A DNA stretch of 39,327 bases from Saccoglossus kowalevskii (lineage: Eukaryota; Hemichordata; Enteropneusta; Harrimaniidae). The notes below the pieces were generated by a model. That model saw only the letters and a program-made list of their open reading frames with translations. It did no database searches and was not told the DNA's origin. The first letter of the stretch is position 1. The number at the start of each line of letters is the position of its first letter. Location: the NCBI RefSeq assembly GCF_000003605.2, contig NW_003137822.1, positions 95,656-134,982 of the forward strand, given 5' to 3'. The position numbers and the translations under genes were made by a program. Positions 2,495 to 33,836 of this stretch are shown in pieces.

Positions 2495-2611
2495 ATGGAT
2501 GCACACACAAGCTCAACGTGCGACATGGACGAACTAGTCGAGTTACGTCGCAATCTCGAAGAAAAATCGTTAGAAGTTGACAGGCTTCGTCAGAAACTAA
2601 AGCTATACGAG
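2495..2611 (+). CDS. MOCS3: MOCS3 exon 1
   Basis: 39 codons, ending in phase 0 at GAG|GTAATA. The ATG at 2495 (context CACAAAATGG) is chosen because it opens the only in-frame path and CCGTAAACA upstream contains a stop. The exon encodes a charged Leu-heptad segment ([19 protein letters not shown]), the predicted N-terminal coiled coil seen in animal MOCS3 and Uba4 proteins. Confidence 0.85.
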
Positions 2612-5600
2612 GTAATATTTTAATTTAAATTTTCGAAATCTGTTCTATTTTGAATCGATGCATTACATTTTAACATAATCTCATTTTCACCCGGTATTTT
2701 TCAAACCAAGTTATCTCCAAGTACTGCAATATCGGCATTGAGTGAGAACATATAAATGTGTGTACATTAGTTTATTACTAGGTTATGTATGTATTGGCTC
2801 CTTTAATAATCTGTGACCCCCGGGGGCATTACATAGAACTTGCCTAAAGGGGAAGTGCCCCTGAAATGGGACTCGTTTTTTGGATTTTAGGTAACAGTAG
2901 GATAGGATAGGATATTTTATTTGGAACGTACACAAAAAACAATGCTTGAGTAAAGTCCAACGTAAGAAACATACAGTATCACAACTAATCTAAAATAATT
3001 TTAAAATCTGAAAAACAAAATTAGCTAAAATACTACAAATATATTTGTCTACACTAGAGAAAACATTAATAAACAATTCTCCATTTGGTAATGTTTGATA
3101 GTCAGGTGAGTATTTGAACAATGTATAGAGGAATTTTTTTCTGTGTTCTGAAAAACTGTCACAATGAAAAAAGTAATGTTTTTCATCACCCACATCCTTA
3201 GAGTCACATTTGTTACATACCCTGTCAATTTTATTTATTCCCCTGTGACGGCCTATTTCAATTGGCAAGAAGTGGGCTGAAATACGAAATTTGGTTAATG
3301 CTACTCTGTGTTTTTGTTTTATATCATCCAAGTATTTTTCAAATTTATAATTATTTTTGAATGTTTTATAAGTACTTAGTTTATTATGACCAGTTTTGTT
3401 CAACTGACTTTCCACATTTGTTGAGTAAATTTGGTTTAACCTTTCTTTAAACAGATTGCAAAAATTTGCCTGATTAGTATCCGTGTTTGTAACAGTATCA
3501 GTCTTATTTCTGGTCAAGTTAGGTATAAATATCGGTAATATTTTTCCGATTTGGTATACTTGTGTAAGTGACAGAGGTGTTTCTATGGTCAAAGTACATA
3601 TTTTAATAAATTAATATACAATGCAACTGTTGGCTTACATGTGCTTCTATTGGAGATGCTCTACTAATAGAGCAAATACGGAAATTGTTTTATTTGGAAT
3701 AAACAGTGTTGACAGAAATGGTACTTTGGTATAAATATGGTCACACTTTTGAGCACTCAGGGGCACCTCCCTACTCAGCTATGTATCAACTGCCTCCCCC
3801 GGGTCTGTGACGCCAAAAATTAATAATATGGTGTAGAATTCGGGTTTGTAAGACACTCATCATGATAGGTACATCATTTTTCTGGGTGGGTGGACGTCTG
3901 TATTGTGTGAGGGTTTTCGGCATGGTTTGGGGTTTGAAATGTGTTGTATGTTTTACAAGGAAACAGTACAAGCCGCTTGTAACATTGGAATAATATTTGA
4001 TGACACCCTTCAGTACAGAAAACATATCACCACTACAAGTATTTACATGCACATCCGACGTATTGGACACATCCGACAGTATCTATCCACTGAAACCTGT
4101 TTCGAATTAGTATGTTCCATCCTTGTTGCTAAACTGGACTATTGCAATGCCTTACTATATGGCTTACCCGACACACAAATACATCTCCTTTAAAGGGCAC
4201 AGAATTGTGCTGTCCATTTCATCACACGTTCAAAGAAGTTCAACTATATTACCCCTGTTCTACATCAATTACATTGGCTCCCAGTTATTTACAGAATTCA
4301 ATTCAAGATCACTACTCACATACAAAGTACTTCATGGATTAACACCAACCTACATATCTTGATTCAACTCCGTCAACTTGGTAGAACTCTTTGTTCAAGT
4401 AATACATGTACAAATTCAGAACCAGACTCAAGACATATGGCGATCACTCATTCTCACATGCTTCTCCGTCATTATGGAATCAGTCACCAACAGACATTCG
4501 TTCTGCAGCCAGTTTAAACATTTTCAAATCTAAACTCAAAATTTTTATGTTTCAGAGAGCATTTCTGTGAACTGACAGCGTCATTGGGCATCATCGTGAC
4601 GGATATTAGCTAAGGCGCTATACAAACTCTTGATTATATTATTATTATTAAATATATATATTGTCTCATTCTATTCATAGGAACATGATAAAAGGCACAA
4701 GGCTATGCTTGATTGTGAATTAATCAATGATAATAATCTGCATACTATTCCACATTTATCTGTGATTTCTAAACTAGAAAACTCATCAATCGCGAGACAC
4801 AGTAGACAACTGATTTTACCTGAAATTGGTGTTAAAGGTACTGTATTTCAATATCATTCATTTCCTTGCTGAGTTCACAAAGCCTTTAGTTGTTGTACCT
4901 GTTTGCCTTGCATAATACTAGTAGTTTATTCACAATTTCAATTACTGTATTTGGGGTCTGTGATTTGACCATTAATAATTATTTCTTGAGGTTGCTGAAT
5001 TGTTAAAAAAAAAAAATTACATTTTTGATAAGTCAAATATCATAGAATGAGTTTCCGTCAGTGATAATGTAATTGCAGATAATTAAAAATGGTATTGGAA
5101 GTAATTTCAAATAAAACAATGTATGTACACTGAGGACATTAATATGTAAATAGTTTGAATAAACTTCAAGATTGAGATCATCGGAATGTGGCTACGGTTT
5201 TTGCTCTAAGTGGTTTAATGTTAGAGGAAAATAAATTATTGCAAAAATTATAAAAATATTCATATACATTTGGTTCATATATAGGTCATCTAGAAGAAAA
5301 TAACAAATTATTGTGGTTTTAAATTTATAGAAGAATTATGTGTGCCTTCTATCACATTTCAATTTTTGTGTTTATATTTATATACAACACGCATATACAT
5401 TTATGATCTGACATTTTCCAGGACAGATATCCATTGCTAATACGTCAGTATTAATAGTTGGAGCCGGTGGATTAGGATGTCCTTCTGCCATTTATCTAGC
5501 TGCTGCTGGTATTGGTAAGATATTCATATTTTTTTAAACTGATCTATTTTTACTTTTTTATTGATGTTTGATCACTGTATTATGAAGGTATGATTTTGTA

Positions 5601-8600
5601 TGCAACTGTTAAATGTGATCACCATGGTGATGTATGTTTTGTGTTCCTGTTCAGGTTTGTATCTATCTGCACTTTTAATTGTTCTCTAAGTATCGGTATA
5701 TTGTTAACTCTGGTTTTCCATTCACTTATATAGTATGATGTATATAATGTATGTGTTGACTTTTGTAGTAAAATATATGAAACATTTTTTTTATATGCAT
5801 TGTGACTTCTTTCTATGCAATGCAGTATGTCTTTGTATGCAATGTGACATGTCTTTGTATGCAATGCAATATGTCTTTGGCAATTCGTCATGTTTTTGTA
5901 AGCAATGTGACATGTCTTTGTGTGCAATGTTACATGTTTTTGTATGCAAAGCGACATGACTTTGTGTGCATTGTGACATGTCTGTATGCAATGCAACATG
6001 TCTTTGTATGCAATTCGTCATGTCTTTGTATGCAATGTGTCATGTCTTTGTATGCAATGTGACATGTCTTTGTACGCAATGCGACATGTCTTTGTATGCA
6101 TTGTGGCATCTTTCTAAGCAATGTGTCATGTCTTTGTATGCAATGCGTCATGTCTTTGTGTGCAATGCGACATGTCTTTGTATGCAATGCGACATGTCTT
6201 TGTATGCAATGAGAAACGTCTTTGTGTGCAATGTGACATGTTTTTGTATGCAAAGCAACATGTTTTTGTATGCAATGTGACATGTATGTATGCAATGCGA
6301 CATGTCTTTGTGTGCAATGCGACATGTCTTTGTGTGCAATGCGACATGTCTTTGTATGCAATGCAACATGTCTTTGTATGCAATGCAACATGTCTTTGTA
6401 TGCAATGTGTCATGTCTTTGTATGCAATGTGACATGTCTTTGTGTGCAATGTGACTCGTCTTTTTGTGCAATGTGACTCGTCTTTGTATGCAATATGACA
6501 CGTCTTTGTAGGCAATGTGACATGTCTTTGTGTGCAATGCAACATGTCTGTATGCAATGTGAAACGTCTTTTGTATGCAATGTGACATGTCTGTATGCAA
6601 TGCGACATGTCTGTATGCAATGTGACATGTCTTTGTGTGTAATGTGACAAGTTTCTGTATGCAAAGCGACGTGTCTTTGTATGTAATGTGACATGTCTTT
6701 GTGTGTAATGTGACATGTTTCTGTATGCAAAGCGACATGTCTTTGTATGTAATGTGACATGTTTCTGTATGCAAAGCGACATGTCTTTGTATGCAATGTG
6801 ACATGTCTTTGTGTGCAATGTGACATGTCTTTGTATGCAATGTGACATGTCTTTGTATGCAATGTAACATATATTTTTAAATACTATGAGGTTATTACGA
6901 GGATATTTAAAAATTCACTACGTTCAATTACCCACCATGGACTCCGGTCAGTCAAAATGACTATTTTGAACTGTAGGCATTAATCAGCGATTCTGCCGGT
7001 GACGGAGAGATAGAATCTAGGTCAGGGGAAGCCCCATGACCCCAAGATTCTTTTACCCCTTACGTCACGAACCCACGTGACCGAGGCCACATGGCAGCGC
7101 CATAGACGGCCGTACAATCACTCTTCTTTCATCTCCGCCTCGTCGGGAATGATTCTCAGCGGCTCTGCCTGGCTCGTTTGCTTTTTCTAGCGTGGGTCAT
7201 TGCTGCAGCCGCGGCATCCGACATTCTAGCTGGTAGGATAAGTTTTTCTTGTCCTTTATCCTTGTGTCGTTTTCCCCTTTGTGTGTTATGCTTTTCCACA
7301 AATTAAAACCCAGCGCCACCACGTAACCACTTGTTGGTTTCATGGCGGCACCTTTTACAACTGTATTTCGTTTCCCTCATGCATGTCATCTTTTATTTAC
7401 AATGTATTTAGAAATGGATAGATGCACTGGCAACGTCAGAAGCTCGCCGGTGGTATTATCCCTCAGTTTTTGAGGCGGGTCTGCAACCATTGTACACAGA
7501 ACTTGCAGGACTGGAACCCACATGCTAAATGCTACCGATATTACTTGTGTACAGGGTTCGGGCGTCTGCCCAGAGAATATTTGCAATCACTGGGGTTCTG
7601 AAGCCTGGGATTCTTTGCAGCAGTTTGTAAAGATTGCCAAGAGTGACTGGGTTGCTCGCTCGCACAAAGGTCGCGTGGCAGGTGGAACCAGCATAGATAT
7701 GGGTGAGTTGTGCGTTGGCATGAGTCAGAAGTCCTCGCGCTGTGCCCCTAGAGGTATTTCCTCCTATTGGGCCCGCCCAGGGTCCCGTTGTGGAGCCATC
7801 CTCGCACAGCGCCGGTTTTGCCGCTGAAATAAAGGCATTGGTCGAAGGTCTGTCGGGGAAGATTGCGTCCCTGGCAGGCCGGGTAGATCAAATGCAGTCG
7901 AAGCGAGCTGTCTCCAATGCAGCCTCTCAGCCGGCAAGCAGGAAGAAACATAGAAAGCACCGTTTGCATTCTAGACACGTCTCTTCCGGGGAACCCCCTG
8001 TTCCCAGCCGTGATCCCTCCGCTAACTTGGGGGAGGCCGAGGCTCAGGCTAGTGACACCGGGTCTCCTCGGGGACCTCGGACACAAAACACCAACGGGGA
8101 TGCTGGTAGCCAAGACTCCGTTTTCGTCCTCCCCCTTCAACCAGCCAAGGTTCGCCGCGCAGTACCGGACTTAATAATTTACCTTCAAGTCCGAGCTCCA
8201 CTGTGGGTTTCGACTCCCTTCTTGCCGACCCACGGGCATTCCCAGAGGGAACCAACCCTGTCATGAGACGCACTCTCGCCCACATTTTTAAGCTGAGAGG
8301 TGGCAGTTTGTTCGCGTCGGATACAGTGGGTACCTCGGGCAGTCCCTCAGAGTCCACAATGTGTAATGACTCAGTGAGCCACGCCGTTGGGGTGATGCGG
8401 AATATTATCAGTCCAGGTTATGTATATTCCCCCACCCTCGATCCTAAAGCAACCACTCACGGTCACTTCTACGCTGATGGGATCGCAGGCACCGGGATCC
8501 AGATCGACCCCACCGCACCAGGGATAATCTTTTTGCATAACCCCTTTCGCTGGACCAAACGCTACCCTATTGGGGCAATTTTGGATTCGGACCCCAATTC

Positions 8601-11600
8601 GTGGGACGAAACTAGAAGCCCCCCACCCGAACCCCAAGGCTCCTTCCCCAGACCCCGGTACCACAAATTTCTGTTCTGCTAACCGGGCAAAGGGGACGGC
8701 CGGGTTCCATGGTCATTCTCATCGACCTAGTCTGAGACTATCTAACACGCCCTGAGGGCAGAGTTGTGACCCACCAATTTCCTAGAATTCATGGCCGCCA
8801 CACTGTTCGGCAAGGGATCAGGCTACGACTTAGTAACCCCAGTTATCCCCGGGGAAGCTCATCTCACGGAAGAAGAGAGACCCCCCCCCCCTCTTGGAAC
8901 CGCCGAACCCATGGCCACAGATCCCTGTCGCACGCAAATTTCGCCGGTGCATTCCGGCTTGGAGGGTAACTGATCCCTGGATGCTCCAGGTGGTGACACT
9001 CGGTTACAGAATACCACTGACATCTCCACCGCCCCTGTCAGTGTCCGCCCCATTTGGGGGCACTGCCAGGGGATCCCCGCAAGGCGGAAACAATCAGACA
9101 GGAAGTAGACAGTTTGCTAAAAAAAGGGCGCCATACACAGAATAGTTCAGCCAGGCTTCTACTCAAATGTATTCATAGTACCCAAAGCTACAGGCGGCTG
9201 GCGTCCGGTTCTGAACCTAAACAGACTAAATCAGTATGTGCTTCTCGATCGGTTCCGCATGGAGACACCATCCAGTGTCCTACTCTCCATCCACCGGTTC
9301 GACTGGCTAGCCTCTTTAGACTTGTGAGATGCATACCTGCACATACCGATGCACCCAGCGAGTTGCCCTCTCCTTCGATTCGCCCACCTGAGCCAAGTAT
9401 TCGAATTGTTGGTGCTCCCCTTCGGGTTATGCACAGCGTCCTACGTGTTCACCAAAGTGATGAAACAAGTTGTACTGCTGCTCCACCAAATGTTGGTACA
9501 CATCAATCCGTACCTAGACGACTGTTTGTTACACAACCCAGACAAGGGGTTATTAGCCAGACAAGTAAGGCTAACGCAGGATTTACTCCACCAGTTGGGC
9601 TTCCTAGAAAATCAGAAAAAGTCCCATCCCGACCGACTCAACAGTTGGTGTTTCTGGGCATGGAGTTCAACTCCGAGGTAGGCCTGGTTCACCCATCTCA
9701 AGCGCATTGCCTAGCGCTAAGCAACCTAGCAGAACGCCTAGTCACCCTCAGTGTCCCTCCGAGAACTAATGTAGCTCATCGGAATGATGACCTCCGTTCA
9801 AAGGGTAGTTCCCCAGGCCGCTCTACGTAGCCGCCCGGTCCAACGCTTGTTATTGGAACACCGAGCTCACCTATGGGAACTAGACAGGCGAGTATTGATC
9901 CCGGACCAAGCGAAGGAAACCCTGTCCTAGTGGTCGTCACTGACCAACCTCGGGCAGGGGGTCCCCTTGGACCCACTCCAAGGGTGGGGAACGCATCTAT
10001 TGGACAAACATGCCCAAGGAATATGGCCTCCGCAGTGGGTTTGGGACCACCATATCAACTGGCTCGAGCTGAAAGCAATTCGTGTTCGAGACCACAGAGT
10101 CCTGCTCCGCACAGATAACACAGCGGGGGTCTCCTATATCAACAAGGAGGGGGGACGCCTTCCCCATCGTTGTCGGCCCTAGCAGAGCAAATTCTCCTTT
10201 GGTGTCTGGAATACAATGTGGAGCTAACCGCACACCACCTTCCAGGGGTGAGGAACGGTCTGGCAAACGTCCTTTTGAGGCGGCCCCGTCTCCAGGACAT
10301 GGAGTGGCAGATACCCCAGTGGGTAGCCTTCAGGCTGTTTCGGCTGTGGAACGATTCAAAAATAGACCTGTTTGTCGCACACCAGAACGCCGAGCTCCCG
10401 ACGTATGTAACACTAACACTCCTGCCTACACCAGTAGCCTGGGCTGTGGACGCCTTATCGATTCCGTGGTCCCACATGGATGCATACGCCTTTCCTCCCT
10501 TCCCGCTGACTACGACTCGAAATGGCGAGCATACACTAATTGGTGTAGTGGAAGGGAGATTGATCCATGCCATCCCTCTATCGACCAGGTAGCAGACTTC
10601 TTTGTCCACTTGTTTGACGAAGTAGGTTTGTCCTACGCAGCGATCGTTGGCTACTCTTTGAGAACTCTTTGGGGTCAAGTCTAGCCGATTGTCCTATTAT
10701 TAAAAGACTGTTTACTGCTTTTCATAAACAGAGGCCGAAGACCCATAGAAGGGAACCGCCCAATTGGGATCTGTCGGTTGTTTTAGTAGCCCTAGGCAGA
10801 CCACCTTTCGAGCCCCTATTTTCAGCACCACTCAAGTTTTTGACGTGGAAAACAGTCTTCCTTCTGGCCCTCGCCTCAGTTAGGCACCGGTCAGAGCTAG
10901 GTGCACTGTCCTTCGCGAACGGTTGCACCGCCCTTATGGACGATCAAGTTGTACTAAAGATACGAATCAGGTTTCTCGCCAAGAACCAAATCCCAGGACA
11001 CGATCCTCAACCGATCGTCATCCCCCGGCTGTCAAATATTGTCGGTCCGGAGGATCAGAAGAAATTGCTTCTCTGCCTGGTCCGAGTGTTGAGTTGCTAC
11101 GAGAACCGTACCAGGTTTTCCAGACGGGGAACCAAACACATGTTTTTGTGTTACGGCCCTGGCAAACTGAATAAGCCGGCCTCCCCGACTTCCATCTCTA
11201 GGTGGATTACTGTGACTGTACTGGAGGTCTATAATACATTATCCTCCTCAACACAGACCTTGCAGAGACACCAAGTATGAGCACATGAGGTCCGTGCGAT
11301 TGCTAACACATTCTGAGGGCAGGCTTCTGGAGAACGCAGAACGTCTTCATCAACTACTACCTAAGAGACACCCAATCTATTGAGCAGGGTCTCTTCAGGT
11401 TAGGCCCCATTATAGCGGGTCAGGCTTTGATTACCGACCCAGCCCGAACGACCACAGGGGTCCCTGCGCATAGGTGATAAGTCAGTCTCGGCATTCTTGG
11501 GGACAGATTGTCTGTACCACTAGCACTTCCTGTAAGCTCCCATGTTTCACCTTTTTTGACCTAAACCCTCATGCGANNNNNNNNNNNNNNNNNNNNNNNN

Positions 11601-14600
11601 NNNNNNNNNNNNNNNNNNNNNNNNNNNNNNNNNNNNNNNNNNNNNNNNNNNNNNNNNNNNNNNNNNNNNNNNNNNNNNNNNNNNNNNNNNNNNNNNNNNN
11701 NNNNNNNNNNNNNNNNNNNNNNNNNNNNNNNNNNNNNNNNNNNNNNNNNNNNNNNNNNNNNNNNNNNNNNNNNNNNNNNNNNNNNNNNNNNNNNNNNNNN
11801 NNNNNNNNNNNNNNNNNNNNNNNNNNNNNNNNNNNNNNNNNNNNNNNNNNNNNNNNNNNNNNNNNNNNNNNNNNNNNNNNNNNNNNNNNNNNNNNNNNNN
11901 NNNNNNNNNNNNNNNNNNNNNNNNNNNNNNNNNNNNNNNCCTCTGCCTAAGTATGCATGAAGACAGTACAGCAGGAGTATCGACCAACGCGCATACATCT
12001 TTTCCTTCCATGGATACATCATGGGAATGCCGAAATACAAAAAGTTTAAAACAGATTGAGCGAACTTCTTAGTATGTGGTCTGGTCAAACCCTGGGGGCT
12101 GCCATGTTCGTGTGTAATCGTTACATGTTTGGAATCTGTATTTCCTAGTACAGTAGAATGTGCAATACCACAAAATTACGGCACACTGTAACTTATGGCA
12201 TTACGATGACAGATATATATGTTATTGTATATGACAATATGATGTGTGTATTCATATTCACATGGTTTGTATATAGGTCGTCTTGGTATTGTTGATTATG
12301 ATGAAGTTGAATTGAGCAACCTCCATCGTCAAGTATTACATACAGAGGATAGAATAGGCATTGAAAAGTCTGCATCTGTAACCACAGCAATTAAAGGGTA
12401 AATCAAATATTATTATCAGTAACCATGGCAATCAAAGAGTAAAACAAATATTATCTGTAACCATGGCATTCAAAGGGTAAATCAAATATCATTATATGTA
12501 ACCATGGTAATCAAAGTGTGAACACTATCCCTAAACATTGTTGAGAAACAGTGGGGTAGATCAAATATTATTACTTGTAGCCTTGTTAAGTAAAGGATAA
12601 ATAAAATATTTTTACTCATTTATTCCAAGGGCAAAGGTCAATCACTGCACATCATGTTGAATGCAAACACATTGTATTATGCACATTCCAGTGTTAACTT
12701 GTTCATCCTATTTTTATGCACAGCTTGAATTCATCAGTGGTTTGCATCCCATATCATATGTCACTGAACAGTTCAAATGCTATCCAAGTTATTCAACAAT
12801 ATCCTTTTGTCATCTGCCAATATCATCCTGAACTGAACATTAACATGTCATCAAATATTTGATGTGTTCAAAGGAATAAAGAGATAGAAATTTGATTTTG
12901 TATTTGCATTTTTATTTGAACACATCAACAAACAATTTTTACACAAACCTGGGTTTATTTCATTACTGATTATGACTGCTAGCAATTTTGTTTTATTTAT
13001 GTTCACGGTCGATCATGAAGCCATGCAAAGACCAAACATAATGTTTATATACATGTCGATTAGTTTTTTGATCAGATCTAATTTGACTGATATTGTAGAT
13101 TAGTATTTTTGCAATTTGCCTTATTTATTCAAATATAGTATGCAGTTAGGCATGGTTTAGTGGGACAAGCGCATGTGACTGTGTTCTTTGGGACCACTTG
13201 TAATATTTTCCTTTACCAGCTATATTACATATGATATAGTATTGGATTGCACTGACAACGTGGCTACAAGGTATTTATTGAATGATGCATGTGTGCTGAC
13301 TGGTAAGCCATTGGTATCAGGAAGTGCACTCAGGTTTGAAGGACAGGTCAGTGGCTAGCTACTGTAAATGCATTAATTGTTCACTTGTTCTTAATTTTGT
13401 TATTTTCACTGATGCTGCTAAGCATAACAATAGAATTCTTTGTTTCCATATCAAGTTTGTAAACTTTAAACCCAGTGAAATTGCTCAAAATTACTTTAAT
13501 GAAAACAAATCATTATCTTATATTGGAGGTATGTGACTTATGTGTGTTCCTCTGACTAGTGTTGCCGGGTTAGGATGTTGGCAAAATGTATTGACAAATC
13601 TTAAGAATCTCGTGCCCTTTTTTTCTGGTCAGGTTACAGTTTATAACACTCAAGACGGACCATGCTATAGATGTCTGTTTCCAATACCACCACCCCCAGA
13701 AACAGTGACAAATTGCTCGGATGGTGGTGTACTTGGTGTAGGTAAGTTTATTGTGGTGTACTTGGTGTAGGTTAGTGTATGATGGTGTACTTGGTGTAGG
13801 TTAGTGTAGGTTAGTGTATGATGGTGTACTTGGTGTAGGTTAGTGTATGATGGTGTACTTGGTGTAGGTTAGTGTATGATGGTGTACTTGGTGTAGGTTA
13901 GTGTATGATGGTGTACTTGGTGTAGGTTAGTGTATGATGGTGTACTTGGTGTAGGTTAGTGTATGGTGGTGTTGTTAAGTGTATGATGGTGTACTTGGTG
14001 TAGGTTGGTTATATGCTGCGATGGTGGTGAACTTGCAGGTCTTGGAAAGTGTATATGCTCCAATGGTACTTGGTGTAGGCAAGTGTATGCTTGATGCTGT
14101 TTTCAGTTCTTGTTTGAACAAGGTCCGAAATCAAAGGACTTTTTGACCTTTGTGCATGTGTCTGTGTGTCTCCACCTGCATCTCAAACATGTCTTATCAG
14201 ATCATATTCAAACTTCGCAAATACATCACATATCGTAGACAACATATTGACGTCTATTTGTTTCATGATCCAATTCAAGTTGGGTCAAATGGTGACCATT
14301 TTTGTGGTAAAAATTCATCAAAATCAAACATTTCTGCCATTCTGAAACCAGATCTCAGCATATATACATTGGATATTATGGGCTCTTGATGCACATCCGA
14401 CCGTTGGCCATTTTGTTTTAATGAATGCTGTTCCAGAAAAATATCTGTATCTATCATCTTTTGTGTTTGTCTATTACTTGAATTGTCATGTGCACTGTCA
14501 TGTGCACTGGTATATGTTAACCCTTAGAATGTCATTTCCAACTTTTAGCATCATATACTAATTGATTTTGTACAATTTACCCCTCCCCAATGAAATGTTG

Positions 14601-17600
14601 ATAAAAATTGACAAACCTATCAATCAAAAACTAAAAGCGATATATGTCTGTCTGTATGGTCAAAAATGATGATGAATTGATGACAATTTAACAAAATTTG
14701 AAAACCTATGAATTTTGGGTGGGAAAAATATCTGCCACCAAAAGGGTTAACCTTTATACTGCGTGGTCTTTTTATTTTCATGAGATTTCACTGAGATCTT
14801 CATCACATCTCACATGCATTCTTCATCCATTGTAATTTTTTGTATTTAATGTTGACTTTACTGCAGTGCCAGGAATCATTGGTTGTATACAAGCATTGGA
14901 AACATTGAAAATTGCTTCAGGCATTGGTGGTATCCTTTATATTGCTATAATACAGAATACATCTATGATGCTGTCTATTATATCTATCTTATAGAGTTTT
15001 TGAAAGAAGCTGCAGTTCCAGCTATCTACCAATTTGATGCAGCACCTTGTTTTGAACAGAAGAACAATCACAAAAAATGATCTAATGAAGTTGTCAATAT
15101 GGTGGAATTTGAATAATTATATATAGCGCCCTCAAGGTTCAAGTCATAAATATGTTCGTTTTTGAATAAAATGGCATAATATCATTTTAATTTGCATATT
15201 TTGACTATTTCTGTGTGGATTTGTCTCATTTGCATTTTTCCCAGTACAATATCAGATAATACTCAGTCTGATACCAGCATTCCTCAGGGTGTACCAACCT
15301 TAACACTTCCTATCAGCATCATACTGTCAGAAATTACTAGTTTTTGATGGAATTGATGGGACATTCAGAACCATTAAACTGAGATCAAAGAAAAAAAACT
15401 GTGTAGTATGCAGTGAGAATCCCACCATTACACAGCTGATAGATTATGAACAGTTCTGTGGTTCCAAAGCCACAGATAAGGTATGTTTAGCTACTATATA
15501 CATGTATACATATCCCACTTACTATTTGGATGTTTTAAGATAAAAGCAGAGATGCTGGATTTTATGGAAACAATAGAAATTTCATAAAATCACTTTGTTG
15601 CAACATTACTATGAGCAAATCATCAGGTTATCTGGATCAGCTTCAATGTACAAAGAGTGTTGTATGTTTGTTGATTGAGCCACTGAGGAATGTGACTCAT
15701 TGGTAAATTTAATGGTTAAAGAGTCTTCCAAACCACCAAAAGGAATCTATCAAGAGACCTCCAAGATTCCTATGATGTTGGAATAAATTTGCATGGTTAA
15801 TAAGATATAACAATCTTTGATACTAGGCGGTTACTTACCATGAAATGCAGGTACCAAGAATATTAATATATAATGTACAATATATATGACTTTTGTTACA
15901 GAGCAAGACTGTGAAATTGTTGTCCAATGAGAATAGAATATCTGTGGAGAATTATGCAAATATTGTGAAAGAAAAACACTATCATGTTTTAGTTGATGTC
16001 AGGACACCATGTGAAATGGATATATGTCAGCTTCCAAATACCATTAGTATCCTTTTATTTAATAGTTCCTTAGTGTTTTTCACATTTCAATATAGTTTCT
16101 CAACATTTTTCGTCAATTTTTAAACCAAATGAATATAATTTTTAAAAAATTACATGGTATTTTATTTTGTGAAAGTTGACTTTGATGTTGAAAGGGTTGA
16201 AGGTTATTGTGATTTTGAAAGTCATTTTGTAATATCAAATCTGTTAATGAATTGTTCATTATTCGTCAAATGGCATAAAAGCTCCAGATTTCTAAAAACT
16301 TTTCTCCCAATAATGAAGGTTGCTGTGTAATTACAAAAGAAGTAATAGTTAATAATAAACGAAATAAATTAGGTACTTAAATTAAATCACTGAAGATGAA
16401 CATAAGTGGTGTTCTCACTAGACAAAATAAGCCGTTGTCACAACGCCTTTTATTTGAGAACGTTGTTAAAAAGTGTGTGAACAGAATACGCCGTTGTGGC
16501 GTCGGTGTTTTTGACACTGACGTGAAAGGGGGTGGACCAGATCCTAAACGCCATTGTCACACCAGCTCTTGCACAATGGAACACAATATAACGGCCAAAA
16601 GCCCTCTATCGCCGACTTATTTATGCTTGGCATTAAACAAGATGGTGTCAGAGGTTACAAGTCGAATTTTTTAGCCAATCTGTTATCCCACGTTCGTAAC
16701 ACTATTTCTTCCCACCAGTTATTTCTGCGTTGTCGAGTCCAAATCGCTCGGGTTGCTGGATCTATTGTTGCGTTATTCATACACTCGAATAGCATAAACA
16801 TGAACCGATCATTTCTCAGTCTTGTTCGACCTAACAAGTTGGCAATTTCTTGCTCTTCGAAATCCTGATTAATCGATCGTCGTACGCTTCTTCTCGAGCG
16901 TAAAAGCACACGAAAAAACAGAAACAAAGCAAATGCATTTACCAGAGGGGACGCCATTTTGTCGATTAACCTTTCCATTTGTTTATTGACCTTTCCGTGA
17001 TATGATTTGTTGAGGGCACAAAACACCAGTGTTTTTACTAAGTGAGAACACAAGAAGACAATTCAGCAGATTAGCTAATATTTGCACAACAAAAAAACAG
17101 TGTCAACACCGGCATTTTTTAGACGTGTGAGAACGTAGCTACATTCACAGTGAATAAAACAATAAATTGATGACTGTGTTTCTTGACAAATTAAAACTAG
17201 ATATACCAATTACTGAGGTTGGTAAAAACAATGATAACATGCATAAGTTGAAAACTGCCATTGATAAACTCACTGATCAAGTTCAAACAGTGCCTGGTGA
17301 GTATCTGTTTAAAATTTTAACTGCTATCACAGGACTCAAATCAAATCAAATCTGTGAGAATTATAGATGAACGCAGTTACAATGCATGGCATGTGAATAT
17401 GAAGCTACATCAAAATGCTTTCTGAAAGTGGCTATTAAAAATGCATCATGCTAATATTAAATTACTAATTATGTTCATATTATTACAGTGTATGTGGTAT
17501 GTAGACTTGGCAATGATTCACAGTCCGCTGTTCAGATTTTACAAGAGATGTTATCTGATTTACCAGTCACAATCAAAGACATTCGTGGAGGACTCGTGCA

Positions 17601-17640
17601 GTGGGCTAAGAAGATTGATCCAGAATTCCCACAGTATTAA
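2495..17640 (+). CDS. MOCS3: MOCS3: adenylyltransferase and sulfurtransferase (Uba4 type), 12 exons
   Basis: Coding exons: 2495-2611, 4681-4837, 5422-5514, 12277-12397, 12724-12798, 13229-13346, 13633-13741, 14867-14929, 15317-15480, 15902-16046, 17201-17296, 17489-17640. They sum to 1410 nt (469 aa); the human protein is about 460. MOCS3 is a cytosolic enzyme that adenylates the C-terminal glycine of MOCS2A and of URM1, then transfers sulfur from its rhodanese domain to make thiocarboxylates for molybdopterin synthesis and for tRNA wobble-uridine thiolation. Visible landmarks: N-terminal coiled coil (about 10-38), RHSRQ (78-82), nucleotide-binding VGAGGLG (104-110), [13 protein letters not shown] (129-141), DCTDN (194-198), zinc pairs CYRC (238-241) and CVVC (313-316), E1-like Cys255 in TNCSDGG, rhodanese DVR (371-373), active-site loop CRLGND with Cys424, and the conserved FPQY C-terminus. 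All key residues are present, so the gene looks functional. Intron 3 is swollen by a DIRS element and an assembly gap. Introns 5, 8 and 10 look U12-type. Confidence 0.95.
2818..3803. mobile_element. DNA transposon with inverted termini and 8-bp target duplication, hosting a LINE
   Basis: The same 8-mer TCTGTGAC occurs immediately outside both ends (2810-2817 and 3804-3811). The left end reads CCCCGGGGGCATTACATAG and continues to GTGCCCCTGA. The right end read on the minus strand is CCCGGGGGAGGCAGTTGATA and continues to GGTGCCCCTGAG. These are imperfect inverted repeats of about 55 bases. An 8-bp duplication is typical of hAT and P superfamilies; no transposase remains, so the family is open. 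The exact end is ambiguous by one C. Confidence 0.7.
2890..3592 (-). pseudogene. LINE (non-LTR retrotransposon) C-terminal fragment
   Basis: A minus-strand open frame of 200 codons (2990-3592) with a LINE-like C-terminus: a basic segment ([20 protein letters not shown]), then a zinc-knuckle-like [14 protein letters not shown], followed by a hydrophobic tail. Many LINE ORF2 proteins end this way, after the reverse transcriptase. Past the stop the minus strand runs into AAATAAAATATCCTATCCTA, a short repetitive 3' tail expected of a LINE. Endonuclease and polymerase domains are absent, so this is a 5'-truncated copy, nested in the element at 2818-3803. Confidence 0.65.
3903..4650 (+). pseudogene. 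L2/CR1-like LINE 3' end, truncated and frame-broken
   Basis: Reading across frames, the translation follows the end of the reverse transcriptase region of CR1/L2-group LINEs: [16 protein letters not shown], then [12 protein letters not shown], then the hallmark [16 protein letters not shown], then a [14 protein letters not shown]-like segment in another frame. Stops and frameshifts interrupt it from about 4190 on. The 3' end, GGCGCTATACAAACTC followed by ATT repeats (to about 4650), is a typical tail for this group. It is a dead 5'-truncated insertion ending about 30 bases before MOCS3 exon 2. Confidence 0.7.
4681..4837 (+). CDS. MOCS3: MOCS3 exon 2
   Basis: 157 nt, phase 0 to 1, donor AAAG|GTACTG. 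Residues 40-91. The first half is poorly conserved linker; the second half holds [19 protein letters not shown], the entry to the E1-like fold, in which the Arg of RHSRQ contacts ATP phosphates across the dimer in this family. Confidence 0.9.
5422..5514 (+). CDS. MOCS3: MOCS3 exon 3
   Basis: 93 nt, phase 1 to 1, acceptor ACATTTTCCAG, donor TTG|GTAAGA. Encodes the Rossmann strand and glycine loop [20 protein letters not shown] (residues 101-120) that bind ATP. Confidence 0.92.
5797..6868. repeat. 22-bp minisatellite, about 48 copies
   Basis: The consensus unit is close to GCAATGTGACATGTCTTTGT plus AT. Variants differ by a few bases (GCGACATG, GCAACATG, TGTGTGC); a few units are shortened by about 4 bases (ACATGTCTGTATGCAATG). 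The core GACATGTC is self-complementary. Because 22 is not a multiple of 3, long stop-free frames appear on both strands (up to 240 codons, with a 22-residue Cys/His-rich periodicity). These are a by-product of the repeat and not genes. Confidence 0.9.
7690..8270 (+). pseudogene. DIRS gag-like ORF1 remnant
   Basis: Open segments include a likely coiled coil ([20 protein letters not shown]) followed by a basic stretch ([14 protein letters not shown]) and a Ser/Pro/Gly-rich linker. Its position before the reverse transcriptase and its composition fit the poorly conserved first ORF of DIRS elements. Frames switch near 8175 and no single ORF spans the region, so exact limits are approximate. No zinc knuckle is seen. 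Confidence 0.45.
9120..10300 (+). pseudogene. DIRS reverse transcriptase and RNase H, inactivated
   Basis: The reverse transcriptase frame shows [16 protein letters not shown] (about 9165-9210), the motif-A region ending [24 protein letters not shown], and the catalytic YLDD box (about 9510). An in-frame TGA at 9325-9327 falls two residues after the motif-A aspartate. The RNase H follows with [29 protein letters not shown], then, after a shift in a run of G near 10147-10155, [19 protein letters not shown] and [12 protein letters not shown]. At least one frame change also separates the polymerase from RNase H. The copy cannot make an intact enzyme as read. Confidence 0.85.
10480..11420 (+). 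pseudogene. DIRS tyrosine recombinase, frame-broken
   Basis: An N-terminal core-binding part ([20 protein letters not shown], about 10520-10580) is followed after a frame change near 10670 by a 203-codon open stretch (10669-11280) with [17 protein letters not shown], the first catalytic Arg box. Past a TGA at 11278-11280 come [10 protein letters not shown] (His-x-x-Arg box) and, in another frame, [15 protein letters not shown], which carries the candidate nucleophilic tyrosine. The full Arg/His-Arg/Tyr set is visible but spread over at least three frames with stops, so the recombinase is dead in this copy. Confidence 0.8.
11577..11939. other. Assembly gap (363 N)
   Basis: Unsequenced run inside MOCS3 intron 3, directly after the DIRS recombinase region. 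The DIRS right terminus probably lies here. Confidence 0.99.
12277..12397 (+). CDS. MOCS3: MOCS3 exon 4
   Basis: 121 nt, phase 1 to 2, donor AAAGG|GTAAAT. Encodes [19 protein letters not shown] and the following IGIEKSASV. Asp131, Asn137, Arg140, Gln141 and Lys153 match the ATP/Mg-binding residues of the MoeB/E1 fold. Copies of the exon end and donor are repeated in the intron that follows. Confidence 0.92.
12380..12620 (+). repeat. Degenerate tandem copies of the exon 4 end and its splice donor (about 40 bp unit)
   Basis: The exon-intron junction reads CTGTAACCACAGCAATTAAA then GGGTAAATCAAATATTATT. Downstream copies read GTAACCATGGCAATCAAAGA with GTAAAACAAATATTAT, then GTAACCATGGCATTCAAAGG with GTAAATCAAATATCATT, then GTAACCATGGTAATCAAAGT with GTGAAC, and a more decayed one near 12570. 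Donor-like GT positions fall at 12398 (real), 12439 and 12477. Confidence 0.8.
12724..12798 (+). CDS. MOCS3: MOCS3 exon 5
   Basis: 75 nt, phase 2 to 2, acceptor TTTTTATGCACAG. Residues 164-187 ([24 protein letters not shown]) plus part of 188. There is no usable GT donor in a compatible phase; the exon must end before ATATCCTTTT at 12799, a U12-type AT-AC donor. Joining CA here to A at 13229 gives QQYDIVLDC, the expected MOCS3 sequence without gap or insertion. Confidence 0.9.
12799..13228 (+). other. MOCS3: MOCS3 intron 5: U12-type AT-AC intron
   Basis: Begins ATATCCTTTT, the consensus of minor-spliceosome AT-AC introns, and ends TATATTAC. TTTTCCTTTACC at 13206-13217 resembles the U12 branch site (TCCTTRAC) and sits 10-15 bases before the AC end, the usual short distance. 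The alternative CCAG|CTATATTAC acceptor has a good pyrimidine tract but no matching donor in frame. The intron also holds an inverted repeat (12858-12872 / 12915-12928). Confidence 0.88.
13229..13346 (+). CDS. MOCS3: MOCS3 exon 6
   Basis: 118 nt, phase 2 to 0, donor ACAG|GTCAGT. Residues 189-227: [20 protein letters not shown], then [24 protein letters not shown] includes the aspartate that coordinates magnesium in MoeB-type enzymes. Confidence 0.93.
13633..13741 (+). CDS. MOCS3: MOCS3 exon 7
   Basis: 109 nt, phase 0 to 1, acceptor TTTTTTCTGGTCAG, donor GTAG|GTAAGT. Holds the first structural zinc pair CYRC (238-241), [13 protein letters not shown] with the E1-like Cys255, and SDGGVLGV. The last 16 bases, GGTGTACTTGGTGTAG, are the seed of the minisatellite in intron 7. 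Confidence 0.94.
13725..14090 (+). repeat. 29-bp minisatellite that repeats the exon 7 splice donor
   Basis: The unit GGTGTACTTGGTGTAGGTTA plus GTGTATGAT repeats across intron 7; its first copy is the exon 7 end itself. Each copy carries GTGTAG|GTTAGT, a donor-like site, at 13771, 13800, 13810, 13839, 13868, 13897, 13926 and 13955, with GTTGGT at 14004; the real donor GTAAGT is at 13742. Copies after 13960 are degenerate. An in-frame TAG at 13768-13770 precedes every decoy, so use of any of them would truncate MOCS3. Confidence 0.9.
14867..14929 (+). CDS. MOCS3: MOCS3 exon 8
   Basis: 63 nt, phase 1 to 1, acceptor GACTTTACTGCAG. Residues 264-284: [20 protein letters not shown], then G. The end is set by the U12-type donor GTATCCTTT at 14930, which keeps the same length as other MOCS3 proteins through this segment. 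Confidence 0.9.
14930..15316 (+). other. MOCS3: MOCS3 intron 8: U12-type GT-AG intron
   Basis: Begins GTATCCTTTA, the U12 donor consensus. Near the end, CCAACCTTAACACTTCCTATCAG holds CCTTAAC, a near-perfect U12 branch site, about 13 bases before the AG. Removing it gives [14 protein letters not shown], aligning without gaps to the family. Confidence 0.9.
15317..15480 (+). CDS. MOCS3: MOCS3 exon 9
   Basis: 164 nt, phase 1 to 0, donor AAG|GTATGT (U2-type). Residues 285-339 with the second zinc pair CVVC (313-316) and the linker [13 protein letters not shown] into the rhodanese domain. A TGA (TTTTTGATGG) is only out of frame. Confidence 0.9.
15902..16046 (+). CDS. MOCS3: MOCS3 exon 10
   Basis: 145 nt, phase 0 to 1, acceptor TTTTGTTACAG. 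Residues 340-387, the start of the rhodanese domain with [20 protein letters not shown]. The next bases, GTATCCTTTT, are a U12-type donor. Confidence 0.92.
16047..17200 (+). other. MOCS3: MOCS3 intron 10: U12-type GT-AG intron with Harbinger remnant
   Basis: Begins GTATCCTTTT. TTTCTTGAC at 17179-17187 fits the U12 branch consensus and its A lies about 14 bases before the CTAG end. Splicing gives LPNTINIPITEV, as expected for the family (other members have LPxAxxIP). A transposon remnant occupies 16400-17060. Confidence 0.86.
16405..17055 (-). mobile_element. PIF/Harbinger-like DNA transposon remnant
   Basis: Short inverted ends: GGTGTTCTCACTAG at about 16408-16421 and, on the minus strand at about 17036-17050, GTGTTCTCACTTAG. 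Between them a minus-strand open frame (16655-17053) translates to a basic region followed by [20 protein letters not shown] and [11 protein letters not shown], which resembles the N-terminal part of HARBI1-like transposases. It stops before the catalytic DDE domain, so the copy is internally deleted. Target duplication could not be fixed. Family assignment is from motif resemblance only. Confidence 0.5.
17201..17296 (+). CDS. MOCS3: MOCS3 exon 11
   Basis: 96 nt, phase 1 to 1, donor CCTG|GTGAGT. Residues 388-419, [20 protein letters not shown] and a helical segment between the two halves of the rhodanese fold. Confidence 0.9.
17489..17640 (+). CDS. MOCS3: MOCS3 exon 12 (terminal)
   Basis: 152 nt ending in TAA at 17638-17640, acceptor CATATTATTACAG. 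Encodes [18 protein letters not shown] with the persulfide-carrying Cys424, [20 protein letters not shown] and stop. The CxLGND loop is the MOCS3-type rhodanese active site. Confidence 0.94.
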
Positions 17641-30600: not shown

Positions 30601-33600
30601 CTGTATTTATTGTACGATAATAACCTAGTTAAACCATATGTACTGGTACACTATAAAAAAGCAAATATATTATTGAATAGAAATCAACACTAAATATTTC
30701 AAAACAGAATCTCTACTGGATAATTAATAATATAACAGTAGAATATACGAGTATAGTAAGAATATTAGCTATTTTAACAATCAGTTGTATAATTATAAAT
30801 TATATCATGAACCATCAAGTAGATGAGTAAGTTTCTAAGGACACCACAGTTTTTTTATACAAGATTCTGGTTATTTATAGGAGTGGGGTAGGGTGGGGTT
30901 GGGTTTGTTCCTAGCATGCAGCATTTAAACTAACCAATGATAGGGGATTATCTTACATCACTTCGCTGTACACGATAGAAAATACATCACAAAGAGTACA
31001 GAAAAAAATCCATGTTGCTAAATGCACTGAGCTGTCCCAACCATAAACTGGAAACATGTCTAGTATAAGAAATGAGCCAAGTACTGTTCTAATTTCCTAC
31101 TTACGCCAAATGCAAGGCTATTGAGTTTCTATATTCCACTGTGCTAGCAAAATGTCAATAAAAATGTAATCTCCAGCATCTATGGATGTCACTATCACAA
31201 ACATGGGAATGGAACGTCATGTAATTATGGCTGACATGGAGGACAAGTCTCATAGTGAACTGAATCAGCAGCACAACACTATTAAAATTAGAATTAGTTA
31301 CATCTTACATAGAAACATATTTTAGCAAAATTAGCTCAAATAACTTGCTATTTGATAATGCATAGCAGGAGATACATGATATTACTGGATGACATAAATA
31401 AAATCTTTGTGAATCAACTGTCGCAACACAGTTCAAAAACTTAACATGAAGACTCTAAATACATGTTCCTGTAAACTTGCAAGAGGCATATGTTTTTATG
31501 ACAAGGAAAATTTAATCACTAAGGACTCATTGTAATTACCAACATGTCACTGTGTGATTTTCGCCAAAATTTCTTTTCACTAACTAAATTATCAAATAAC
31601 AAAAATGTAATGCTTTTATTACAGTAATTTAACAAGATGCAATGAAGACAACCATGCTGCTGTTTAATTTGGCTAAGAATTTACATTGCCGCTAATTTGT
31701 TGTTTTATTTTCAAACTACAGAGAGTAGCACAATCATCTAATTTGCATACCCTGACAAACATAGAAAAAGGATAAAAAAGAAACCAATACAATCTCAAAA
31801 TTGGTTGGCACACTGATGAAACCGTTTTTCATTCTTGCAAAGGAAAATGATTACATGTATGCCTGAAACTATGGTTACCAAAGAGAAATTATCATACATG
31901 CAGCATTTATATATATGTGGAATGATGCCCTATTTAGTGACTCAGTGTTTAAACAGCTCATTTATATGTGATCACACTGCACAAGCAATATTCACAATAC
32001 TCATAGAAATAGAAAGTCACATAATGATTGAAGAGAGGGACAAATACGTGATATCAAGTACAGCAGGAGTGAGATTTTTTTTACATTTTGATTTAGGGTT
32101 GCCTATTTGAAACAGTAAGGTTCCTTATCCACATGTAGCTGACAAGCCCACCCCTCTGTTTTCAAATGGGGGACTTTTTATCAATATGGTATAAATACCG
32201 GGTATGCAGTGCATATGCACTAACCTATCGTGTATACAGTGCATATGCACTAATCTATCGTGTATGCAGTGTATATGCACTAATCTATCGTGTATGCAGT
32301 GTATATGCACTAATATATCGTGTATGCAGTGCATATGCACTAACCTATCATGTATGCAGTGTATATGCACTAACCTATCATGTATGCAGTGAATATGCAC
32401 TAATATATCGTGTATGCAGTGTATATGCACTAATCTATCCTAATCTATCGTGTATACAGTGTATATGCACTAACCTATCGTGTATACAGTGCATATGCAC
32501 TAACCTATCGTGTATACAGTGTATATGCACTAACCTATCGTGTATACAGTGTATATGCACTAACCTATCGTGTATGCAGTGTATATGCACTAACCTATCG
32601 TGTATGCAGTGCATATGCACTAATCTATCGTGTATACAGTGTATATGCACTAACCTATCATGTATACAGTGTAGGTATATGCACTAACCTATCGTGTATG
32701 CAGTGCATATGCACTAATCTATCGTGTATACAGTGTATATACACTAACCCATCGTGTATACCGTGTATATGCACTAACCTATCGTGTATACAGTGCATAT
32801 GCACTAACCTATCGTGTATGCAGTGCATATGCACTAACCTATTGTGTATATGCACTAACCTATCATGTATGCAGTGTATATGCACTAACCTATTGTGTAT
32901 GCAGTGCATATGCACTAACCTATCGTGTATGCAGTGTATATGCACTAACCTATCTTGTATGCAGTGTATATGCACTAATATATCGTGTATGCACTGTATA
33001 TGCACTAACCTATCGTGTATGCAGTGTATATGCACTAATATATCGTGTATGCAGTGTATATGCACTAACCTATCGTGTATGCAGTGTATATGCACTAATA
33101 TATCGTGTATGCAGTGTATATGCACTACCCTATCGTGTATGCAGTGTACATGCACTAACCTATCATGTATGACCTGTATATGAACTATTGTATTCTGTAA
33201 TGCAGTATTCTATGCAGATCTGACAAACTATAAGTCAAATTACTACTCAATATACATAAATGTTTTCAAAACATATCATGCTCAATAGATTAAATTTAAT
33301 TTGTTAAACTGATTGTATTGTCTACAAGCAGCAGATTTCCGTCATACGACATAAAAAGACACATACGTTGTAGACGACAGGGCAATGATTCGAATTTGTA
33401 GTCAAGTACTCCACTACGACCTCCTGTGACAGCGACGTGACCAAACCCACAACCAGCGAAACAGTACTCGTAGTTATTAAAGTGTATCTAGTCCCCGTTG
33501 TCGTGGTCCAGCTAAACGGTAGCGAAAAGTTAAATTCAGTGTGGGTTACAGTATCCCTGCCATGACAATTGTGTTGACATAGGATACAAACATCAACACT

Positions 33601-33836
33601 GTGACGCCACTTACGTTTTCCGTTTCTCCGTAATATAATTGTGTTTTCTTCAGGCAAAACCACTGCCGTTTCCATTTATGCGTAAGTCTCGTCCTCTTCG
33701 TCAGCCATCCTGTCTTACAATGATCCTGTTCTTCCTGTGGCTCGTCTGTACCACTGTTGTCCCCGTTTACCGCCGGGTTTTCGCTGTTTTCCACGGGAGA
33801 AGATTGACTCTCCTCTCTTCGTTCCTGTTCCGCCAT
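24460..33836 (-). CDS. Small PH-domain protein with C-terminal CaaX-like box, two coding exons
   Basis: Exons 33836-33615 (74 codons) and 24678-24460 (72 codons plus stop) join in phase 0 to give 146 aa. Residues 1-40 are acidic and Ser/Glu/Gln-rich, likely disordered. Residues 41-131 form one PH domain: KTGWLTKRTRLTHKWKRQWF for strands 1-2, LYYGETEN, FVFQLKPKDSSRIHYIHADS, and the C-terminal helix with the invariant Trp123 (QQEWMQAI). The protein ends ACLIQ: Cys143 with two aliphatic residues and Gln fits a farnesylation-type CaaX box. A role at membranes is inferred; no enzyme domain is present. Relative to GRP1/cytohesin-type domains the first lysine is kept (Lys47), but the second Arg of the KRRW motif is Gln58, so strong PIP3 binding is doubtful. 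The intron of 8936 bases uses GTAAGT and TTTGCAG. I cannot assign a named orthologue. Confidence 0.8.
27480..28277 (+). mobile_element. Non-autonomous element with internal repeats and terminal hairpin
   Basis: Blocks recur about every 180-200 or 370 bases: CATGTCAGAGATATGGCTCT, AAAACAAAATGGCTGCCAGT with CGGCCATTTTGAATCTCATC, and CAAGTTTGAACAAAATCCAT. Many units contain self-complementary AAAATGGC and GCCATTTT cores. The 3' end is a strong hairpin: AGTCCCCGTT and TCGGAC pair with GTCCGA and ACGGGGACT (28231-28267). A hairpin ending in CTAA is reminiscent of Helitron-type 3' ends, but the element is not assigned. A decayed relative lies at 1-435. Confidence 0.65.
29845..29893 (-). other. Possible exon interrupted by a stop codon
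   Basis: On the minus strand, ATGGCAAATTATGGTCTTAA enters AATAGCC and then an open stretch PAEKLIRDGDLE that ends at a perfect GAG|GTGAGT donor. The start context CAAGATGGC resembles the real PH-gene start (CAAGATGGCG). Phase 0 at the donor matches the last PH exon, but a TAG lies between the ATG and the open stretch. It could be an untranslated alternative first exon, a relic exon, or chance. Confidence 0.3.
32198..33182. repeat. 30-bp minisatellite, about 32 copies
   Basis: The consensus unit is TATCGTGTATGCAGTGTATA then TGCACTAACC. About a third of units have GTGCATATGCAC, a perfect 12-base palindrome; others have GTGTATATGCAC. A 10-base extra piece lies near 32430-32440, a 5-6 base one near 32671, and a shortened unit near 32840. 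Since 30 is a multiple of 3, ten-residue periodic open frames occur on both strands; they are not genes. It lies in the PH-gene intron about 430 bases past exon 1. Confidence 0.92.
33615..33836 (-). CDS. PH-domain gene, first coding exon
   Basis: Start ATG at 33836-33834 in the context CAAGATGGCG, a good initiation context. It ends at GAAAAC|GTAAGT, a consensus donor. Encodes the acidic N-terminus (MAEQERREESQSSPVENSEN and on) and PH strands 1-3. Confidence 0.82.

Follow-up and report, generated by a model that had tools for sequence, protein, structure and literature searches.

Three putative U12-type introns, one of them AT-AC, in the MOCS3 gene of Saccoglossus kowalevskii

Introduction

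The window analysed here is a stretch of 39,327 nucleotides (39 kb) from the hemichordate Saccoglossus kowalevskii (contig NW_003137822.1, positions 95,656 to 134,982), and it contains a gene for MOCS3 (UBA4) in which three introns look like minor, U12-type introns. The question raised by this locus is whether these three introns are removed by the minor spliceosome, and whether the enzyme could be made without it. Minor introns are rare, mostly occur one to a gene and are said to be almost never found in genes for biosynthetic enzymes. MOCS3, a housekeeping enzyme encoded here by an apparently single-copy gene, has three such introns, spread over both of its domains and all outside phase 0. 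It offers a clean test of whether clustered minor introns have survived from ancient times, and of whether the need of a metabolic pathway for the minor spliceosome differs between animals. Our analysis indicates that this is very probably a functional, U12-rich MOCS3 gene, whose introns 5, 8 and 10 would be removed by the minor spliceosome.

U12-type introns in the MOCS3 gene

The MOCS3/UBA4 gene lies complete on the plus strand at 2495-17640, with 12 exons and 11 introns, the number that the first-pass annotation of this DNA had also counted. The joined exons give 469 codons without an internal stop, and the frame closes at a natural stop codon after DPEFPQY. In the protein a ThiF domain (residues 79-314, E 1.6e-81) is followed by a Rhodanese domain (residues 357-460, E 9e-10), both above the Pfam cut-off. 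Among solved structures, the best match was fungal Uba4 (6yub, E 2.4e-82), and E. coli MoeB (1jw9, E 5.7e-57) and the rhodanese domain of human MOCS3 (3i2v, E 1.6e-26) were also matched. The order of the two domains, which is the whole order of the ThiF-rhodanese fusion known as MOCS3/UBA4, and the closest relatives assign the gene to MOCS3/UBA4, and the product is predicted to be an adenylyltransferase and sulfurtransferase.

Three introns on this strand carry U12-type sites. Intron 5 (12799-13228, 430 nt, phase 2) is of the AT-AC kind and runs from ATATCCTTTT to TTAC, with the donor ATATCCTTT and the branch site TTCCTTTAC, whose A is 13 nt before the last base. Intron 8 (14930-15316, 387 nt, phase 1) is GT-AG and runs from GTATCCTTTA to TCAG, with the donor GTATCCTTT and the branch site AACCTTAAC, the A again 13 nt before the last base. 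Intron 10 (16047-17200, 1154 nt, phase 1), also GT-AG, runs from GTATCCTTTT to CTAG and has the same donor, GTATCCTTT, with the branch site TTTCTTGAC and its A 14 nt before the last base. The coordinates proposed for these introns in the first-pass annotation were exact in every case.

The U12-type consensus is RTATCCTTT for the donor, with a branch site near UCCUUAACU (PMC2846911). All nine donor positions agree with RTATCCTTT in introns 5, 8 and 10, compared with 2-6 of nine in the other eight introns of the gene, and the U2 donor score runs the opposite way, with 3, 4 and 3 of nine in these three introns and 6-8 of nine in the others. Branch sites were scored against the consensus TTCCTTRAY, with the A placed 10-16 nt from the intron end; introns 5, 8 and 10 reached 8, 7 and 8 of nine, and each of the other eight reached 5 of nine (5-6 of nine when the range was widened to 8-22 nt). 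U12-type introns have either AT-AC or GT-AG termini, not a mixture of both, and lack a distinct polypyrimidine tract. The termini found here are AT-AC, GT-AG and GT-AG for introns 5, 8 and 10, none of them mixed. There are 12-13 nt between the branch A and the last base, a short distance of the kind expected for U12-type introns, whose optimum from branch site to acceptor is 11-13 nt (PMC3584512). Minor introns tend to avoid phase 0, in which 22% of them are found on average (PMC10639083), and the phases of introns 5, 8 and 10 (2, 1 and 1) agree with this tendency. Predicted pairing with the 5' end of human U1 was weak for introns 5, 8 and 10, with duplex energies of +1.0, -4.2 and -2.2 kcal/mol versus -6.2 to -11.2 kcal/mol for the others. 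The earlier claim of three U12-type introns in MOCS3, one of them AT-AC, is therefore upheld by the full donor scores and the closely placed branch sites, and no other intron of the gene is alike.

On both strands of the window RTATCCTTT occurs three times, and these sites are the three donors. The count itself is weak evidence when taken alone, because 1.01 sites are expected and at least three were obtained in 9 of 100 shuffles. The noteworthy point is that all three copies sit exactly at coding junctions, and not their number. Among the 6169 other GT or AT starts of the plus strand outside the MOCS3 exons, none scored nine of nine and two scored eight. A branch score of at least 7 preceded 3.8% of the AG or AC ends outside the MOCS3 exons (n=4084), and a score of at least 8 preceded 0.37%. 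When the looser published donor rule was applied, which allows T instead of C at one of the positions +5/+6, 14 sites were found in the window, three of them the U12-type donors.

Rarity and known genes with several minor introns

The share of minor introns is about 0.3% in vertebrates and similar in other deep deuterostome clades, tunicates excepted (PMC10639083). At 0.3%, and assuming independence, the probability of at least three minor introns among 11 would be 4.4e-6. Such introns are known to be clustered, since clustering was significant in 21 of the 21 genomes tested (PMC7367187), and the 770 minor introns reported for human lie in 714 genes, 50 of which have two and 3 of which have three; mouse likewise has 3 genes with three U12-type introns (PMC6717393). 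When the first-pass annotation called three minor introns among eleven striking, it was fair as to their rarity, but because minor introns cluster, including in human genes with three, this MOCS3 gene is uncommon rather than unprecedented. Roughly one in four human minor introns is of the AT-AC kind (about 22% in PMC6717393, 26% in PMC7367187), so that one AT-AC intron in three is ordinary. The window gene resembles the human and mouse genes with three U12-type introns in holding several of them, and it contrasts with the minor-intron genes of these species in encoding a biosynthetic enzyme. MOCS3 is thus an atypical host gene for minor introns, in an arrangement of a type already known from human genes. 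Our literature searches found no paper joining U12 with MOCS3, MOCS3 with intronless, or the minor spliceosome with the molybdenum cofactor; MOCS3 was not named among the matches listed for intronless and retrocopy genes, and neither CNX5 nor AT5G55130 was named among the literature matches listed for that pair.

Minor spliceosome in the host genome

The host genome (572 Mb, 4830 contigs) was scanned for components of the minor spliceosome, and the best candidates were scored with models of the small nuclear RNAs. At least two full-length copies of U6atac were found, scoring 136 and 112 bits against a cut-off of 33 (best 46 of 9710 candidates scored), and both carry AAAGGA, the complement of the UCCUUU that each of the three donors contains. 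U4atac was found once, with 67 bits (cut-off 53; best 49 of 17350 candidates scored). Three collinear matches to PDCD7, presumably the 59K subunit of the U11/U12 double small nuclear ribonucleoprotein (di-snRNP), lay above the cut-off on one contig (C257), and one of them contains TAA, as happens when a match overruns the end of an exon. The U6atac copy with the lower score (L010, 112 bits, against 136 bits for L009) differs in the stem-loop, and a tRNA gene is located about 0.9 kb away from it. A single match to PF05253 (zf-U11-48K) was rejected as SNRNP48; it resembles the zinc finger of GTSF1, and so it provides no evidence for a minor spliceosome.

Origin of the introns and alternative explanations

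The three introns could have arisen recently in this lineage from a single minor intron that was duplicated or spread, an origin that we regard as unlikely. Their donor starts are almost identical, and a precedent exists in Physarum, for which a significant gain of minor introns has been described as an extremely rare example (Larue and Roy, PMC10639083). The letters that the donors have in common are, however, those of the U12 consensus itself, and blastn among introns 5, 8 and 10 detected no similarity (E up to 0.1), so that copying of these introns from one another is not supported and was rejected. The introns may have been retained from an ancestor rather than gained recently, and they are presumably spliced from the RNA at the sites described.

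It is very improbable that the U12-like motifs are coincidental and that one or more of these introns are in fact spliced as normal U2-type introns at neighbouring GT-AG or GC-AG sites. The junctions were compared with every frame-preserving, stop-free pair of GT-AG, GC-AG or AT-AC sites located no more than 60 nt from the proposed ends (60, 55 and 55 pairs for introns 5, 8 and 10), and the resulting peptides were scored against MoeB and Uba4 for intron 5, MoeB for intron 8 and Uba4 for intron 10; in each case the alignment over the proposed junction was free of gaps. The proposed junction was top-ranked at all three introns, with 325 against 302 for the runner-up at intron 5, 88 against 83 at intron 8 and 32 against 28 at intron 10. 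For the AT-AC intron 5 no good U2-type reading is left, as the best pair of that kind scored 289. The U2-type reading gains something at intron 8, where the runner-up is the GC-AG pair 14944-15330, of equal length and in frame, but the donor of this pair (ATT at the exon end, followed by GCTATAATA) is far from the U2 consensus. It also gains something at intron 10, where alternatives are near, the runner-up being an AT-AC pair with 4 points less and the best GT-AG pair having 7 less (25 against 32). The earlier statement that only these sites restore the protein is correct in that the proposed pairs rank first throughout, whereas the word only is too strong for intron 8, because the GC-AG runner-up has the same length and frame. 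Three perfect donors at coding junctions, each with a rightly spaced branch site, are very unlikely to arise by chance, given that not one of the 6169 other plus-strand starts counted above scored as high.

Several observations weigh against removal of the three introns by the minor spliceosome. The lead of the proposed junctions over the runners-up is small for introns 8 and 10. Duplex energies with a segment of human U11 set the U12-type introns apart just slightly (-6.2, -5.4 and -6.1 versus -1.1 to -5.3 kcal/mol), and those with a segment of human U12 do not separate introns 8 and 10 (-5.6 and -4.9) from the U2-type introns (-3.3 to -6.9). The pyrimidine share at positions -25 to -4 is 0.73, 0.68 and 0.50 in introns 5, 8 and 10 versus 0.55-0.82 in the U2-type introns, so that introns 5 and 8 show no clear shortage of pyrimidines. 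U12 small nuclear RNA was not found by the Rfam model among the best 44 of 18940 candidates, nor by two patterns based on the human gene (31 nt allowing at most 3 mismatches, and 19 nt allowing at most 1), and U11 was not found by its model among the best 40 of 36006; neither model found its RNA in any of 14 control genomes either, and absence is not shown by these two model searches. The minor spliceosome of the host was thus recovered in part, with two U6atac copies, U4atac and PDCD7 present and the U11 and U12 RNAs not found.

A pseudogene or assembly artefact, in which an unexpressed copy would have introns that are degenerating or wrongly joined, is hardly credible, for although intron 3 contains a gap of N and a reverse-transcriptase fragment and the copy count was taken from a 76-amino-acid piece of the protein only, there are 469 open codons, both domains exceed the Pfam cut-off, and that piece matches a single locus, in two exons, in the 572 Mb, which is the MOCS3 gene of the window (C2916:95656-134982). 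A search of viral contigs with the MOCS3 protein yielded no relative (4 stretches fitted the pattern, none was confirmed), and a 206-amino-acid piece searched against genome contigs yielded a match of 30 residues in a Ruminococcus metagenome-assembled genome only (1 of 28 stretches was confirmed).

Dependence of MOCS3 on minor splicing

If introns 5, 8 and 10 are indeed minor introns, their RTATCCTTT donors would be read by U11 and then by U6atac, and the CCTTRAC-like branch sites would be read by U12, with splicing at AT-AC ends in intron 5 and at GT-AG ends in introns 8 and 10; the remaining eight introns would be ordinary U2-type introns. Full-length MOCS3, and hence molybdopterin and tRNA thiolation, would then require three minor-splicing events. 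Retention of intron 5, 8 or 10 leads to a stop after 21, 21 or 25 codons, respectively, counted from the junction codon. Because a truncated protein is predicted whichever of the three is retained, we consider it likely that the production of MOCS3 depends on the minor spliceosome.

A wider conjecture, which we put forward tentatively and consider rather doubtful, is that few genes of early animals, or of even older eukaryotes, may have been as dense in minor introns as MOCS3, that this lineage may have kept three U12-type introns across both domains, which would gate the capacity for molybdenum cofactor and tRNA thiolation, and that vertebrates may have escaped through an intronless MOCS3. 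The human gene is not known to contain introns, in contrast to the twelve exons of the window gene; if it is indeed intronless, the loss of introns in vertebrates becomes testable as an escape from minor splicing.

Exons, border repeats and other features of the window

The gene starts with exon 1 (2495-2611), which has the start codon and a coiled N-terminus, followed by exon 2 (4681-4837), exon 3 (5422-5514) with the nucleotide-binding GAGGLG, exon 4 (12277-12397), exon 5 (12724-12798) and exon 6 (13229-13346). Exon 7 (13633-13741) holds TNCSDGG, presumably the E1-like catalytic Cys region by homology. Exons 8 (14867-14929) and 9 (15317-15480) precede exon 10 (15902-16046), in which the rhodanese domain begins, and exon 11 (17201-17296) leads to exon 12 (17489-17640), which includes the stop codon and CRLGNDSQ, assumed by us to be the rhodanese loop. 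All of these exons are on the plus strand.

Two arrays of exon-border copies occur within this one gene, both at U2-type donors. The end of exon 7 together with its donor is repeated at nine places in intron 7, with starts from 13755 to 14063, mostly at 29-nt spacing and with 75-89% identity (array 13721-14090), and these repeats form a ladder of pseudo-donors. The end of exon 4 with its donor is repeated at two places in intron 4 (12423 and 12461), with 82-86% identity (array 12374-12516). At the threshold used (at least 72% identity over 28 nt) there were no border copies for the other 9 donors or for any of the 11 acceptors, and shuffled donor queries gave a mean of 0. In amphioxus, tandem repeats that span the border between an exon and its intron have been described as 'mirage' minisatellites (PMC3087553), and the tandem copies at the donors of introns 4 and 7 resemble them; unlike the mirages, the copies of the window are mostly spaced at 29 nt and at about 38-41 nt. 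These mirage-like arrays are separate from the U12-type introns and do not touch them.

Intron 3 contains a 22-nt minisatellite of about 50 copies (5790-6870) and a reverse-transcriptase fragment (RVT_1, E 2.5e-8; 9328-9681), with a later open frame (10618-11280) that has no Pfam match. Our guess is that this element is DIRS-like. The gap of N (11577-11939) follows the reverse-transcriptase region. Upstream of MOCS3, the end of another gene on the plus strand was read by eye at about 657-1496, and its last 51 amino acids weakly match the SEP domain (E 0.017, below the cut-off). Downstream, an open frame on the minus strand (33546-33896) aligns with the beginning of a PH domain at 22.1 bits (E 2.3e-4), short of the Pfam cut-off of 25.1, and is perhaps the first exon of a separate gene. 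A 30-nt minisatellite of about 33 copies is located at 32202-33187.

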